This document shows, piece after piece, positions 23,554 to 28,686 of a stretch of 64,000 nt of DNA; the first letter of the stretch is position 1, and each line of letters starts with the position of its first letter. Under the pieces are notes generated by a model that was not told the DNA's origin, ran no database searches, and saw nothing but the letters and a program-made list of their open reading frames with translations. Made by a program: the position numbers and the translations under genes. This stretch comes from Sphingorhabdus sp. EL138 (lineage in GTDB: Bacteria > Pseudomonadota > Alphaproteobacteria > Sphingomonadales > Sphingomonadaceae): positions 930,001-994,000 of the forward strand of contig NZ_OGVD01000004.1 in NCBI RefSeq assembly GCF_900258045.1. The letters are read 5' to 3'.

Positions 23554-24603
23554 CTATCCCAATAGGTCGTGGCGTTTCAGGGAATGGCGCAATTGATCAT
23601 AAGTGAGATTGAGCGCTTTGGCAGTTTGCCGCTGGTTATAACGTGATTTGGCCAAGGCGGTTTCCAATATACGTTTTTCGAAGGCTTCCACGGCTTCCTT
23701 CATATCATCGACCGCTGCATAACTCGGTTCCGCGGCAGGAGCAGCAGGCGCAGGTGCCTCCTCGACTTTGTCAGGCGCGTGATCAGCCGCAGCTGGCTGC
23801 GATTGCCGAGAAGGCATTTCTTTCGGCTTCCATGGTGATTCAAACGGATCAAAGACGATATGATCGACAGCGCGTGTGTAATCGCCCCATTGATAAACAG
23901 CACGCTCGATCACATTACGCAACTCACGAACGTTACCGGGCCATTGGTGACGTGCCAGTGCTTCGGATGCCAATTGACCGAAGCCCGGCCATTGTTCCCA
24001 TTCCAGTTCAGCCGCCATGCGTCGCCCGAAATAGTCCGCCAAAACCGGAACATCCCCCTCACGATAGCGTAGCGGCGGCAGCGTCACGACTTCAAATGAC
24101 AGGCGATCAAGCAAATCCGCCCGGAATTTCCCTTCGTCCGCCATCTTCGGCAGGTCGGCATTGGTAGCCGCCACGATCCGCACATCCACCTTTTGTGGTC
24201 TCGATGATCCTATTCTGGTAATCTCGCCATATTCAACCGCCCGGAGCAATCGCTCCTGCGCCGCGGAAGACAATGTTCCCAATTCATCCAGAAACAAAGT
24301 GCCGCCATCAGCTTCTTCAAAGCGCCCTACTCTATTCTTGGTCGCACCCGTAAAGGCACCGGCTTCGTGGCCGAACAATTCAGCCTCGATCAACGTTTCG
24401 GGCATGGCAGCGCAGTTTAATGTAACCAAAGGACCATCCCAACGCATGCTTAGTCGATGGAGACGTTCAGCGATGAGCTCTTTACCTGTACCGCGCTCTC
24501 CGATAACAAGTACGGGACGGTCCAGAGTGGCCGCCCGACTGGCTTTTTCGACTGCATCAAGGAAAGCTCCGGACTCCCCGACAAACTGATTTTCGCGCTC
24601 CAT
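23554..24603 (-). CDS. pspF: Phage shock operon activator PspF (sigma-54 enhancer-binding protein)
   Basis: 349 residues from the ATG at 24603 (MERENQFVGESGAFLDAV). No receiver domain: it starts directly with the AAA+ module, as PspF does. Walker A GERGTGKELIAERLH, the sigma-54 contact loop GAFTGA, Walker B GGTLFLDELG, then a linker of about 60 Pro/Ala-rich residues and a Fis-type helix-turn-helix (YNQRQTAKALNLTYDQLRHSLK). Divergent from the psp operon, whose -24/-12 promoter it should activate; in enterobacteria PspA inhibits it. Confidence 0.95.
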   Translation of the reverse strand: MERENQFVGESGAFLDAVEKASRAATLDRPVLVIGERGTGKELIAERLHRLSMRWDGPLVTLNCAAMPETLIEAELFGHEAGAFTGATKNRVGRFEEADGGTLFLDELGTLSSAAQERLLRAVEYGEITRIGSSRPQKVDVRIVAATNADLPKMADEGKFRADLLDRLSFEVVTLPPLRYREGDVPVLADYFGRRMAAELEWEQWPGFGQLASEALARHQWPGNVRELRNVIERAVYQWGDYTRAVDHIVFDPFESPWKPKEMPSRQSQPAAADHAPDKVEEAPAPAAPAAEPSYAAVDDMKEAVEAFEKRILETALAKSRYNQRQTAKALNLTYDQLRHSLKRHDLLG

Positions 24604-24702: not shown

Positions 24703-24718
24703 TGGCACGCCTCCTGCA
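24703..24718 (+). promoter_or_regulatory. Sigma-54 (-24/-12) promoter of the psp operon
   Basis: TGGCACGCCTCCTGCA: GG at 24704-24705 and GC at 24716-24717 with exactly 10 nt between them, matching the sigma-54 consensus. It lies about 50 nt upstream of the first small gene and between it and pspF, which encodes the matching activator. The AT-rich stretch upstream probably holds PspF binding sites. Confidence 0.88.
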
Positions 24719-24770
24719 ATGTTAGCTTCGAACCCGCAAGGGACTGGAAATCGACCAAACGGAGGACAAC

Positions 24771-24953
24771 ATGTCAGCAGCTACGAAAACAGGCAAATCA
24801 ATGAATTTGAGCAGAACCGACGTTTCTGCCATCATTTCCGTGTTGCTGTTTAGCCTGACGATTTTGATCAGCGCCGTGGGCCCTGCCGAAGCACAAGGCC
24901 CGACCATCTCTGAAGATGGTACAATTTCCCCAACTGTCAGCTATAAGGCGTGA
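24771..24953 (+). CDS. Small membrane or secreted peptide at the head of the psp operon
   Basis: 60 residues starting MSAATKTGKSMNLSRTDVSA after CGGAGGACAAC, a strong ribosome site. One hydrophobic stretch (about 19-38, ending AVGPAEA) followed by a short polar tail GPTISEDGTISPTVSYKA; the AEA-Q could be a signal-peptidase site giving a peptide of about 19 residues. It is the first gene behind the sigma-54 promoter. No homologue is recognised. The good ribosome site and position argue that it is real. Confidence 0.65.
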   Translation: MSAATKTGKSMNLSRTDVSAIISVLLFSLTILISAVGPAEAQGPTISEDGTISPTVSYKA

Positions 24954-25102
24954 CAGGCGAAATGGCCGGGACTCCTTCATTCCCCCTTGCCGAAGTACGG
25001 TCCCGGCCACCTTTCCAGATTGAAGACGTAGAATTTTATGAAGACCAGCCTGAACGTTCGAACCATTCCAGGCACAATGCTAGCAACTACCGGAGTTTAA
25101 CC

Positions 25103-25786
25103 ATGGGTATTTTTTCAAGAACGCGCGATATCATCGCCGCCAATGTCACGGACATGCTCGACAAGGCAGAGGATCCGTCAAAACTGATCCGCATGATCAT
25201 CCTGGAAATGGAGGAAACCCTTGTCGAAGTTCGCGCTTCTGCCGCACGGACCATTGCCGACCAAAAAGAAATGCGCCGGCATATTGATAAGCTGAACCAG
25301 CTGACTGAAGACTGGAACGAAAAAGCGCAACTGGCCCTTTCCAAGGACCGCGAAGATCTCGCCAAGGCGGCGTTGATCGAAAAACGTAAGGCCGCGGACA
25401 TGGCGGAACAGCTTACTGTTGAAATTCAAGTGCTGGATGATGCCCTGCGCGCTTCAGAAGGTGATATCGCCAAGCTGCAAAAGAAATTGCAGGAAGCACG
25501 CTCTCGCCAGAGCAGCCTGGTTAACCGGCTCGAAAGCGCCGAGAACCGCTATAAAATCCGTGAAATGTATAATGGCGACAAGGTCCATGATGCATTTTCA
25601 AAATTTGAATATCTGGAACGTCAGGTGGACCAGGCCGAAGGCCGTGCCGATGCGCTAACGATGGGCGGTGAGCCGGCGACACTGGAAAATCAGATTGCTG
25701 CGCTGGAAAGCAGCGACAAAGTTGATGATGAATTGGAAGCCATGAAGGCGGCCATGAAGAAGTCAGACCAGAAAGGTGACAAATAA
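25103..25786 (+). CDS. pspA: Phage shock protein A
   Basis: 227 residues from MGIFSRTRDIIAANVTDMLD (GGAG upstream; a longer in-frame reading from 24950 is rejected because PspA begins here). An almost entirely coiled-coil peripheral membrane protein of the PspA/IM30 (ESCRT-III-like) family that binds stressed membranes and, in E. coli, holds PspF inactive. The N-terminal amphipathic helix and DPSKLIRMIILEMEETLVE are typical. Its stop overlaps the pspB start. Confidence 0.96.
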   Translation: MGIFSRTRDIIAANVTDMLDKAEDPSKLIRMIILEMEETLVEVRASAARTIADQKEMRRHIDKLNQLTEDWNEKAQLALSKDREDLAKAALIEKRKAADMAEQLTVEIQVLDDALRASEGDIAKLQKKLQEARSRQSSLVNRLESAENRYKIREMYNGDKVHDAFSKFEYLERQVDQAEGRADALTMGGEPATLENQIAALESSDKVDDELEAMKAAMKKSDQKGDK

Positions 25787-26088
25787 TGGACTCGAACGAT
25801 CTTATCCCGTTTTTTGCGATTGTCACTCTGTTTGTCGCGTTCCCGTGGATCATTTTCCATTATGTTACAAAATGGAAAACGGCCGCAACCATCACCAATG
25901 AAGACGAGCAACTGCTCGACGATTTGCACATCATGGCACGCCGATTGGACGAACGCATGGAGACAATAGAACGGATCATGGCAGCAGACAATCCGGACTG
26001 GCGGCAGTCAGCATTACCGGGGGCAGGCAATGAACCCAAACCGACACTCGAAAATTTCGATAATCTCTTGAAAAAAGAAAGGCGCTAA
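25786..26088 (+). CDS. pspB: Phage shock protein B
   Basis: 100 residues: one N-terminal membrane helix (about 8-28), then a cytoplasmic helix with RRLDERMETIERIMAADNPD followed by W, the PspB signature, and an extra tail of about 25 residues. With PspC it senses envelope stress and recruits PspA. The ATG overlaps the pspA stop by 1 nt. Confidence 0.93.
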   Translation: MDSNDLIPFFAIVTLFVAFPWIIFHYVTKWKTAATITNEDEQLLDDLHIMARRLDERMETIERIMAADNPDWRQSALPGAGNEPKPTLENFDNLLKKERR

Positions 26089-26090
26089 TC

Positions 26091-26471
26091 ATGGCTTCGA
26101 TCCGCACAAAATTTTATCTTGATAAACAGCGCGCCAAATGGAGCGGAGTATGCGCCGGAATTTCCGACTATACCGGAATAAACGTTATGTGGGTCAGGTT
26201 AGCTGCCGTGATGGCCACCGTGACTTTCGCCTTTCCATGGACCTTGGTTGCTTATTGGATCGCGGCAAAATCGGCTGATCCCAAACCGATGGAACTTTAT
26301 GGCGACAGAGAGGAGCGGGAATTTTGGCAAGGAGTCCGTCAATCCCCCCGCCGCACGGCCAGAGACGTCAAATCACGCTTTCGTGAGATTGACCGCCGTC
26401 TTGCCGATATGGAATTATACTACACCAGTAATAACCGCGCACTTTCGAATGAGATTGAAAAGCTGCGCTAA
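26091..26471 (+). CDS. pspC: Phage shock protein C
   Basis: 126 residues. N-terminal PspC domain (TKFYLDKQRAKWSGVCAGIS, then the membrane helix around LAAVMATVTFAFPWTLVAYW) and a C-terminal helical region (EIDRRLADMELYYTSNNRAL). Inner-membrane partner of PspB. Starts 2 nt after pspB. Confidence 0.94.
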   Translation: MASIRTKFYLDKQRAKWSGVCAGISDYTGINVMWVRLAAVMATVTFAFPWTLVAYWIAAKSADPKPMELYGDREEREFWQGVRQSPRRTARDVKSRFREIDRRLADMELYYTSNNRALSNEIEKLR

Positions 26472-26498
26472 GCCACACAGAATTTAGGGAGACTGACT

Positions 26499-26798
26499 AT
26501 GAATTGGGGTGGACCGGGATTTGTTATCGCCATTATCGCCGTTTGTTATGCTGGCTATATAATCAATAATTGGATCCGGGCTAAACATGGCTATCCGCTT
26601 GAAGATGAGTGGGGCGGGACAACCGCTAAGGATGACCCAAAGGCCGATCGCAAAATTGAGCTGCTCTCTGCGGAAAATGAAGAGTTGGTTGGTAAGATCG
26701 ATCGCTTGCAGGAGCGTCTTGCAGTTCTGGAGCGGATCGCGACTGATCCAGCCAAACGAACAGCAGATGAAATCGAAGCGTTGCGGGAGAAGGGATAA
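26499..26798 (+). CDS. PspB-like membrane/coiled-coil protein, copy 1
   Basis: 99 residues, one membrane helix (about 7-26), the segment WIRAKHGYPLEDEWGG, then a cytoplasmic coiled coil ending in RLQERLAVLERIATDPAKRT. Same plan as PspB (compare RLDERMETIERIM). The GGGAG ribosome site is 7-8 nt upstream. Its stop overlaps the start of copy 2 by 1 nt. Probable role in the Psp membrane complex is inferred from operon position and architecture. Confidence 0.88.
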   Translation: MNWGGPGFVIAIIAVCYAGYIINNWIRAKHGYPLEDEWGGTTAKDDPKADRKIELLSAENEELVGKIDRLQERLAVLERIATDPAKRTADEIEALREKG

Positions 26799-27118
26799 TG
26801 GAGAGTATTTTAGCTAACCCCTCTATTTTGTGGCCCATCGGATTTGCTTGTGCAGTCGTAACGCTGGGATGGGTAGCAACAACCTGGATGCGGATCAAAA
26901 ACGGCTATCCGCTTGAGAATCAGTGGGGCAAAGCGGTTTATCCGAAAACGGATAACGAGGCGGTGGAACGCGTCAAACTGCTAACACAAGAAAATGCAGA
27001 ACTGCGCGCCGAGATCGGATCGATGAAAGACCGGCTTACCAATGTTGAGCGGATTGTGACCGACGATAGCCATCGTCTGACAAACGAAATCGAAGCCCTG
27101 CGCGCACCGAAAAACTAA
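26798..27118 (+). CDS. PspB-like membrane/coiled-coil protein, copy 2
   Basis: 106 residues with one membrane helix (about 11-29), then WMRIKNGYPLENQWG, closely matching copy 1, and a coiled coil with SMKDRLTNVERIVTDDSHRL and EIEALR. The shared xRxKxGYPLExxWG segment shows that copies 1 and 2 are direct duplicates. Translationally coupled to copy 1 (1-nt overlap). Confidence 0.88.
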   Translation: MESILANPSILWPIGFACAVVTLGWVATTWMRIKNGYPLENQWGKAVYPKTDNEAVERVKLLTQENAELRAEIGSMKDRLTNVERIVTDDSHRLTNEIEALRAPKN

Positions 27119-27128
27119 GGAGATCAAT

Positions 27129-27389
27129 ATGATTGAATATCTAGCCCTGTTGATCCCGTTTGCCGGCATCGGCGTTGGAGTTTTCGCAATTTGGACCAGT
27201 CATCAGCAGAAGATATTGAAGATGCAGTCCGAGATATCCGCCGAAAAAGCTGCTCAATATGCAGTCAGTAACAAACAACTGGAACAGCGGGTGCGCGTGT
27301 TGGAACGAATTGTTACGGACAAAGGCTTTGATGTTGCCGGACAAATTGAAAGTCTGCGCGATGAGCCAGAATTGAAGGAGCTGAACTGA
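27129..27389 (+). CDS. PspB-like membrane/coiled-coil protein, copy 3
   Basis: 86 residues: membrane helix about 4-22 (IEYLALLIPFAGIGVGVFAI), a WTSHQQKILK basic collar, and a coiled coil with QLEQRVRVLERIVTDKGFDV and IESLRDE. It is closest in plan to copy 4 (WTRHQSKMLE). AAGGAG lies 5-6 nt upstream. It overlaps copy 4 by 1 nt. Confidence 0.87.
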   Translation: MIEYLALLIPFAGIGVGVFAIWTSHQQKILKMQSEISAEKAAQYAVSNKQLEQRVRVLERIVTDKGFDVAGQIESLRDEPELKELN

Positions 27390-27658
27390 TGTTCGATGAA
27401 CTATGGGTGTTGATACCCCTTGCACCATTTTTGCTCGGCGGCCTGGCCATATGGACCCGTCATCAAAGCAAGATGCTGGAAAAGCAAAAAGAGCTGATGC
27501 TCCTTGGCGAGCGGCTGCCGGAAAGTGAAGATGGCCGGCGCATGCAGGAAGATATGAAATATCTGAAAGAGCGCGTGGCAACGTTGGAAAAAATTGTAAC
27601 TGACGAGCGCGGCGCAAGGGAATTGGAAAGTGAAATAGCGAAGCTGAGAGACAGCTAA
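27389..27658 (+). CDS. PspB-like membrane/coiled-coil protein, copy 4
   Basis: 89 residues: membrane helix about 6-23, WTRHQSKMLEKQKE, then YLKERVATLEKIVTDERGAR and EIAKLRDS. The terminal block is almost identical to copy 5, showing recent duplication or conversion. Coupled to copy 3. Confidence 0.87.
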   Translation: MFDELWVLIPLAPFLLGGLAIWTRHQSKMLEKQKELMLLGERLPESEDGRRMQEDMKYLKERVATLEKIVTDERGARELESEIAKLRDS

Positions 27659-27687
27659 GCAAGAAGCAATTGGAGGGAAGAGAATAA

Positions 27688-27948
27688 ATGAACCCGTTTG
27701 AAATGGTTGTTGCCATCATCATCGTCATCACGGTCGGAAAAGTAGTCAGCACGCGTATTCAGGCCAAACATGGCATTGCATCAGATGAAGAAGGCAACCC
27801 CGTAACCATGGTTGATCCCGATGCCGGACGGCTTCGTGAAGAGGTTAAATATCTCAAGGAACGCGTAGCGGTACTTGAGAAAATAGCCACCGATGATCGC
27901 GGCGCACGGGAATTGGAAAATGAAATAGAGAAATTGCGGGACCAATAG
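27688..27948 (+). CDS. PspB-like membrane/coiled-coil protein, copy 5
   Basis: 86 residues: membrane helix about 5-20 (EMVVAIIIVITVGKVV), RIQAKHGI (like copy 1 RAKHGY), then YLKERVAVLEKIATDDRGAR and EIEKLRDQ. Combines a copy 1-like collar with a copy 4-like tail, suggesting recombination between copies. GGAGGGAAG ribosome site upstream. Confidence 0.87.
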   Translation: MNPFEMVVAIIIVITVGKVVSTRIQAKHGIASDEEGNPVTMVDPDAGRLREEVKYLKERVAVLEKIATDDRGARELENEIEKLRDQ

Positions 27949-27990
27949 GTCGGTTCCTCAAAGAAGCAGGAAAAGAAGAAGGATAGCATC

Positions 27991-28221
27991 ATGCCAGAAC
28001 CCAGTTTTTACCTGATGATTGCTGCGTTTACCCTGATCGGACTAACGGCGGTCTCCCTTATCGCTCTGCGTGGGTGGAGGGACTGGATTGACCTCAAGTC
28101 CAAGGAATTGGAACAAAGGCGCGAGGAAAATCCCCCCAGTGCTACATCGCGAATTGAGGTTGCGGACCTGAAGGAACGCATCCGCAAACTGGAAGCGATC
28201 GCTGCCGGAGTGGAGCTTTAA
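27991..28221 (+). CDS. PspB-like membrane/coiled-coil protein, copy 6
   Basis: 76 residues and the most diverged: membrane helix about 6-25, then WRDWIDLKSKELEQRREE and a short coil with DLKERIRKLEAIAAGVEL. The ending falls where the others carry TD plus a second helix, so it is C-terminally shorter. Last gene of the psp transcript before sufE, 54 nt further on. Confidence 0.82.
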   Translation: MPEPSFYLMIAAFTLIGLTAVSLIALRGWRDWIDLKSKELEQRREENPPSATSRIEVADLKERIRKLEAIAAGVEL

Positions 28222-28275
28222 CAGCCAACCTTAAAAAGGGATGACGCGAATCCCCTGCCCTGCTAGCGGGCGGGG

Positions 28276-28686
28276 ATGAGCAAATTTGACAATCTTGTAG
28301 AAGAATATGAATTTCTGGAAGCTGATGACCGATACCGGCTTCTGATTGATTTGGGCAAGGAACTAGAACCGATGCCCGATGCCCTCAAAACCGATGCAAC
28401 ACTGGTTCGCGGTTGCTCTGCCTCGGTTTGGGTTTATCCGACAAAACAGGATGATGGCCGGCTGCATTTTCTTGCAGATAGCAATGCCGCCATTACCAAA
28501 GGTATCATCGCTCTAGTGCTCGAAACCGTTCAGGACCAACCGATTGATGCCGTTTTGAAAACCGACATTGCGGAAATGCTCGCACCATTTGATTTGAAAA
28601 ACCAGCTCAGTTCCAATCGTACGCAAGGCATACCGAACATGATTGCCTTGATCGAAGAAACGGCAATGCGGTATCAAAAGACCTAA
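28276..28686 (+). CDS. sufE: SufE-family Fe-S cluster assembly protein
   Basis: 136 residues. Accepts sulfur from the SufS desulfurase on its catalytic Cys, here Cys47 in LVRGCSASVWV. Typical start VEEYEFLEADDRYRLLIDLG and C-terminal LAPFDLKNQLSSNRTQGIPNMI region. No other suf genes adjoin it. Its 3' end overlaps the convergent J-domain gene by 4 nt. Confidence 0.95.
   Translation: MSKFDNLVEEYEFLEADDRYRLLIDLGKELEPMPDALKTDATLVRGCSASVWVYPTKQDDGRLHFLADSNAAITKGIIALVLETVQDQPIDAVLKTDIAEMLAPFDLKNQLSSNRTQGIPNMIALIEETAMRYQKT

Follow-up and report, generated by a model that had tools for sequence, protein, structure and literature searches.

The phage-shock (psp) operon of Sphingorhabdus sp. EL138 was analysed within a 64,000-nucleotide stretch of contig NZ_OGVD01000004.1, which is referred to here as the window. 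The genes pspA (25103..25786; TIGR02977, 279 bits, cut-off 243), pspB (25786..26088; PF06667, 88.1 bits, cut-off 25.6) and pspC (26091..26471; TIGR02978, 118 bits, cut-off 104) lie on the forward strand, and all three were above the NCBIfam cut-offs. They are followed on the same strand by a row of six small genes, designated c1 (26499..26798), c2 (26798..27118), c3 (27129..27389), c4 (27389..27658), c5 (27688..27948) and c6 (27991..28221). The intergenic gaps in the row were short, and internal sigma-54 sites were few. A sigma-54 (−24/−12) promoter-like site on the forward strand, TGGCACG-N5-TGCA, was matched exactly at 24703..24718, and 66 of 76 related loci had a relaxed form of the pattern no more than 600 nt from pspA. 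A pspF-type sigma-54 activator gene (23554..24603, reverse strand; Pfam Sigma54_activat E 3.9e-62, HTH_8 E 5e-7) is divergent from the operon, and its position was kept in related loci. Both the six genes and the promoter site agreed with the original prediction, which had been made from the sequence alone and had described the six genes as PspB-like copies arisen by duplication. The canonical PspB was the single match in a PspB family search of the whole genome. The window PspC showed 89% identity to Parasphingorhabdus marina PspC and 90–99% to the PspC of five uncultured Sphingomonadaceae, in line with a Parasphingorhabdus-type sphingomonad.

Each of c1–c6 was predicted to consist of an N-terminal membrane helix and a coil, as originally proposed. 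AlphaFold2 single-chain models gave helix plus coil for c1 (mean pLDDT 70.4; membrane helix 6–30, long helix 47–98) and c6 (mean pLDDT 83.8; long N-terminal helix 4–46, short helix 51–71), and the same plan was derived for c2–c5 from the hydropathy of orthologues. The expected GYPLE..WG collar was present in both c1, with a PspB/PspC-tail-type coil, and c2, with a PspC-tail-type coil. The expected common tail of c4 and c5 was 72% alike over 123 nt. The last gene, c6, carries the near-invariant SRIEVADLKERIRKLEAIAAGVEL. A solved-structure search with the window PspB returned no match; six were obtained with the c1 profile (E 0.02–0.1), mostly GCN4 constructs.

Among themselves, c1–c5 gave hhalign values of 96.8–99.9%, and by sequence they are clearly paralogues. 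The hhalign set left out length outliers, sequences containing X and any c1 match of less than 48% identity. c3, c4 and c5 formed groups in the tree with support of 0.92, 0.86 and 0.78, respectively, and c1, c2 and c5 formed a single clade with support of 1.0; c5 was thus placed with c1/c2 although its tail DNA is c4-like. Support was weak for c1 with c2 (0.29) and was 0.37 for c2 alone. c6 showed no profile-level homology to outgroup PspB (1.7%) and no likeness to the PspC tail. The claim of a shared core and duplication stood for c1–c5; the membership of c6 is distant or doubtful, and its descent is uncertain.

The relation of the copies to PspB and PspC was investigated by profile comparison. 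The combined c1–c5 profile, made of every fourth sequence (73), matched the PspB of 16 outgroup loci at 94.9% (E 4.5e-8), in keeping with the proposed similarity to PspB. It matched the PspC of 16 outgroup loci at 84.6% (E 6.9e-6), with an alignment spanning the PspC tail; reversed controls of the outgroup profile search gave 1.2 and 8.0%. Against the sphingomonad PspC tail, c1 and c5 gave hhalign values of 77–88%, and pairwise similarity of the copies was to PspC, whose C-terminal tail in the window is RLADMELYYTSNNRALSNEIEKLR. Alignments of c2, c3, c5-type and c6 were used for the NCBIfam scans and alignments of c1 and c5 for the Pfam scans; for c4, only the window protein was scanned. All 15 c2 orthologues matched TIGR02978 (PspC) at E ≤ 0.01, with a best value of 5.7e-5, and one other model recurred in 7 of the 15. 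For the c3 orthologues, 8/13 matched TIGR02978 and 6/13 matched TIGR02976 (PspB) at the same threshold. Among 18,950 NCBIfam models, only those of PspC and PspB recurred at E ≤ 0.01 for the c3 and c5-type alignments.

Truncated copies of PspC were ruled out by the missing head domain: PF04024 had no match in c1–c6 at E ≤ 1, and the PspC head gave only 0.1–0.35% against them by hhalign. A second PspC-head-like stretch was seen elsewhere in the genome of the window (G000:C1:308081-308236, 33% identity, E 5.6e-5). Canonical PspB membership was ruled out by the curated cut-offs and by the missing W-R-type ending after the core, which was found in 63 of 81 PspB proteins versus 0 of 395 c1–c6 proteins by a criterion derived from the sequences of the present analysis. 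The copies thus appear to combine a PspB-type architecture with a PspC-type tail, and "PspB-like" was half right for that reason.

The PspC cytoplasmic tail is the PspA-binding part in Yersinia, and the putative leucine zipper of Escherichia coli PspC is described in PMC3068692 as a determinant of PspA interaction. With moderate confidence, c1–c5 are considered to be old tandem PspB-type single-pass coils with a PspC-type tail that belong to a sigma-54/PspF-type operon and act as docking or adaptor coils for PspA, with c6 as a fixed last partner. Membrane stress would free PspF, and the operon would then make PspA together with several membrane anchors. The cytoplasmic coils of these anchors may copy the surface by which the PspC tail docks PspA, or may pair with PspB. 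Since a PspC-type tail is displayed on a membrane helix of its own and encoded with PspA, the copies are proposed as extra docking coils that would hold PspA at the membrane, away from PspF. Such holding might determine how strong the response is and how long it lasts, and the divergent N-terminal halves would choose partners or membrane sites.

The full-length PspB-type profile match of c1–c5 would also suit PspB-like silencers or decoys, whose coils pair with the PspC tail, keep it off PspA, raise the threshold and end the response after induction. This alternative is possible but rather less probable, because the tails are of the PspC type, the W-R-type ending is restricted to PspB and pairwise similarity is to PspC rather than PspB.

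Several results weigh against the docking-coil explanation. All six copies were under the curated PspB cut-offs (PF06667, 25.6 bits; TIGR02976, 51.7 bits); the best were c3 (13.1 bits) and c4 (12.8 bits) against PF06667 and c4 (15.8 bits) against TIGR02976. Pairwise sequence similarity of the copies to PspB was nil. Taken singly, only c1 (94%) and c3 (95%) reached high values against outgroup PspB, and c5 (77%), c4 (57%) and c2 (42%) were weak; against outgroup PspC, c1 gave only 55%, and c5 (19%), c2 (14%) and c4 (1%) were weak. PspB was matched in Pfam scans by 0/14 c1 and 1/14 c5 orthologues, and bZIP_1 recurred in 8/14 c1 orthologues. FtsB, another one-helix coil used as a control (25 of 30 loci used), gave 62% against the combined c1–c5 profile and 56% in the reverse direction. 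Some reversed-sequence controls were high, at 70% for c2 against reversed c2 and 50% for the PspC tail against reversed PspC. The homology rests on short coils. The adaptor-coil interpretation originally offered is supported in part, with its mechanism inferred.

These controls bear on the possibility that the copies are generic one-helix coiled coils, tied to psp by place only and resembling PspB and PspC merely as coils do. Heptad repeats inflate scores, the Pfam scans of c1 and c5 gave mostly assorted coils, and the c1 profile also matched L148 in genome G487, which was rejected by eye as a probable chance coil within a 441-aa open reading frame (ORF). Such an explanation is nevertheless improbable. 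The recurrence of PspC and PspB models alone for c3 and c5-type, and of the PspC model in every c2 orthologue, stands against it. The FtsB/DivIC control gave 2–59% against single copies, its combined 62% was below the 94.9% of PspB, and FtsB against PspB gave less than 5%. When 289 genomes of the class were searched with the c5-type profile, matches outside the own family were found in four genomes: a pair of coil genes beside dut, two psp-operon PspB genes and an additional coil gene located in a psp operon. E values of the three psp-operon matches were 3.9e-4 to 8.1e-4 per genome.

The distribution of the row was surveyed in psp loci of the order. In the GTDB family Sphingomonadaceae, 1–8 such genes followed pspC in every locus counted, and the row was therefore not peculiar to this genome. 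The 80 named loci were chosen from 234 as those with the PspC most like that of the window, and so lean to near relatives. sufE followed the row in 76 of them, and the other four, without sufE in the locus DNA examined, were excluded from the counts; between pspC and sufE, 2 copies were found in 3 loci, 3 in 4, 4 in 8, 5 in 44, 6 in 13, 7 in 3 and 8 in 1. c6 was matched in 79 of the 80 loci. For 31 of the 48 genera with a c2 match, a representative was chosen among the genomes listed with such a match; these carried 3 (2 representatives), 4 (10), 5 (10), 6 (6) or 7 copies (3), and the row ended at sufE in 30 of the 31. Of 297 genomes of the order, 212 had a c2 match, and 211 of these, as listed, were from this family. 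All 20 listed family members without a c2 match still carried 1–4 copies; in two of them the locus was incomplete at the DNA end, and other family members may be among the 65 unlisted genomes that also had no match. Among sixteen psp loci drawn from six further families of the order (f2, f3, f5–f8), 14 had no copy and two had one. The loci without a copy include L159, L161 and L170, in which less than 2.4 kb or no sufE was present in the DNA examined. Both one-copy loci belong to f8, which contributed three loci, and in each of the two a PspC-head-only gene adjoins the coil gene.

In the c1 and c6 families, with 120 proteins listed for each, no Pfam domain was given, and all but a few proteins were named "hypothetical" or "uncharacterized". 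Exceptions included machine-made Tara labels and a single "predicted negative regulator of RcsB-dependent stress response". One c1-family protein, P0049, was named "FIG00636713: repeated hypothetical protein", so an annotation scheme had noticed the repetition.

Median dN/dS was 0.037–0.119 for c1–c6 versus 0.024–0.059 for pspA, pspB and pspC, calculated from up to 8 loci with 4–8 yielding a ratio; the ratios are rough, as dS was saturated in most pairs. All copies look to be under purifying selection. Conservation of the C-terminal core exceeded that of the N-terminal part in c3 (0.71/0.44), c4 (0.72/0.57), c5 (0.67/0.46) and c6 (0.89/0.54), so by sequence the coil of c3–c6 is kept better than the membrane half. 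The gap was smaller in c2 (0.73/0.63) and c1 (0.66/0.63), and in PspB the order was reversed (core 0.47 versus N-terminal 0.58). Although the copy number varies from 1 to 8, neutral or decaying duplicates are disfavoured and very improbable, given the low dN/dS, the largely fixed gene order and the near-invariant cores. In L032, the other copies were 98–100% identical to those of the window, and c5 was divergent (76%) with an identical protein tail. L033, about as near as L032, keeps a c5 of the window type (97%). The c5 of L032 was replaced by recombination, as a divergent allele stands amid near-identical copies and L033 retains the window type.

Relatives were also found outside the family or outside psp operons. 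In f8, the coil gene was present in 16 of 32 genomes; it lay in the psp operon in some of them and behind a sigma-70-type gene in others. A coil gene of the same type adjoins a sigma-70-type gene in L278, L284, L285, L286, L289, L290, L292 and L295, the latter assigned by Pfam in L284 and by likeness judged by eye in the other seven. In the f8 psp operons L275, L277, L282, L291, L293 and L294, a short PspC-head-only gene is followed by the coil gene and then by another gene, which has an L,D-transpeptidase (YkuD) domain in L275. As head-only and coil genes are adjacent, one guess at the origin is that a duplicated pspC split, with head and tail becoming separate genes. The coil pair beside dut lies at L147 1243-1725 in G481, outside the order.

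The relatives behind the f8 sigma-70-type gene and beside dut in G481 mean that the link of the coil module to PspA does not hold in all lineages, a further point against the docking-coil explanation. They favour a role of the copies as effectors or scaffolds: assembled into a hetero-oligomeric lattice of membrane coils, the copies would stabilise the inner membrane without sharing in the control of PspF. Purifying selection and the nearly invariant C-terminus of c6, which is unlike PspB and PspC, fit this alternative as well. It is judged unlikely in view of the psp-operon position in all counted family loci and the tail likeness to PspC.

The rows of 1–8 genes suggest that copies of a stress sensor multiplied and diverged within this bacterial family. 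As a speculative extension, unlikely to hold in full, the pspC–sufE interval in sphingomonads could be a cassette array. Constant C-terminal docking coils would face PspA, PspB or PspC, variable membrane and collar halves would read membrane states, and genes would be gained, lost or replaced by recombination. If so, a duplicated PspC-tail/PspB-type module would have yielded a multi-input, one-output stress sensor. This family has a sphingolipid-bearing envelope, and a tie to the array is conjecture. So far, work on how PspB and PspC turn membrane damage into PspF release has dealt with a single copy of each. In this family, several natural docking-coil variants, as they are read here, are kept side by side under selection, nearly all of them named hypothetical protein in the database listings consulted. 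These natural variants lie ready for use in mapping coil binding to PspA, PspB or PspC, and the row would be a test of whether adaptor number can tune a stress response.

Other features border the row. A 60-codon ORF with a hydrophobic stretch lies between the promoter and pspA (24771..24953, forward strand), and its matches were found only in L032–L051, the 20 named loci closest to the window. Downstream, a G+C-rich hairpin without a U-run (28250..28277, forward strand) reaches the sufE start codon; the RNA fold of 28222-28290 gave −25.6 kcal/mol (z −2.64), and the 3' arm covers the likely sufE ribosome-binding site. sufE (28276..28686, forward strand; PF02657, E 5.2e-35) is the conserved downstream boundary and probably not part of the function of the row.

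Zymomonas belongs to the same order, and its psp genes go up with ethanol (PMC3495753), with xylose medium (PMC8645129) and in work on temperature (PMC8237431); the accessible portions of these three papers do not mention such copies. ZMO1062, called hypothetical or "pspD" there, is numbered just before pspA and may be compared with the 60-codon ORF. Such a row is not mentioned in the accessible part of PMC9239133 (2022) either. In open-access texts, supplements excluded, no earlier description of a row of such extent and tail type was found. Extra PspB-type genes in a psp operon have already been published, and the extent and tail type of the present row are the apparent novelty.

Among known systems, a close published case is in PMC11237479 (2024), which has one clause on "PspB duplicates" in the operon, e.g., AOL22920.1 (Table S3), and mentions PspC fused to a "divergent C-terminal PspB". 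Those duplicates are likewise extra PspB-type genes in a pspFABC operon. They differ in that the text available gives neither organism, number, tail type nor conservation, and overlap with the present row is possible. The psp operon of L304, from another alphaproteobacterial family (f19), has a similar helix-plus-coil gene of 74 codons, flanked by a PspC-head ORF and pspC, but as a single copy. PspB (PF06667/TIGR02976) shares with the copies the N-terminal membrane helix plus coil, the place adjoining pspC, the RLxERxxxLERI-type core and a colinear match to the combined c1–c5 profile; the copies differ by lower scores, another ending and the lack of pairwise similarity. The PspC tail (TIGR02978, about 71–121) resembles the copies in the core and the TS/TD...L..EI..L ending, as reflected in the NCBIfam matches of c2 and c3, and the copies differ from PspC in carrying their own membrane helix in place of the head domain.

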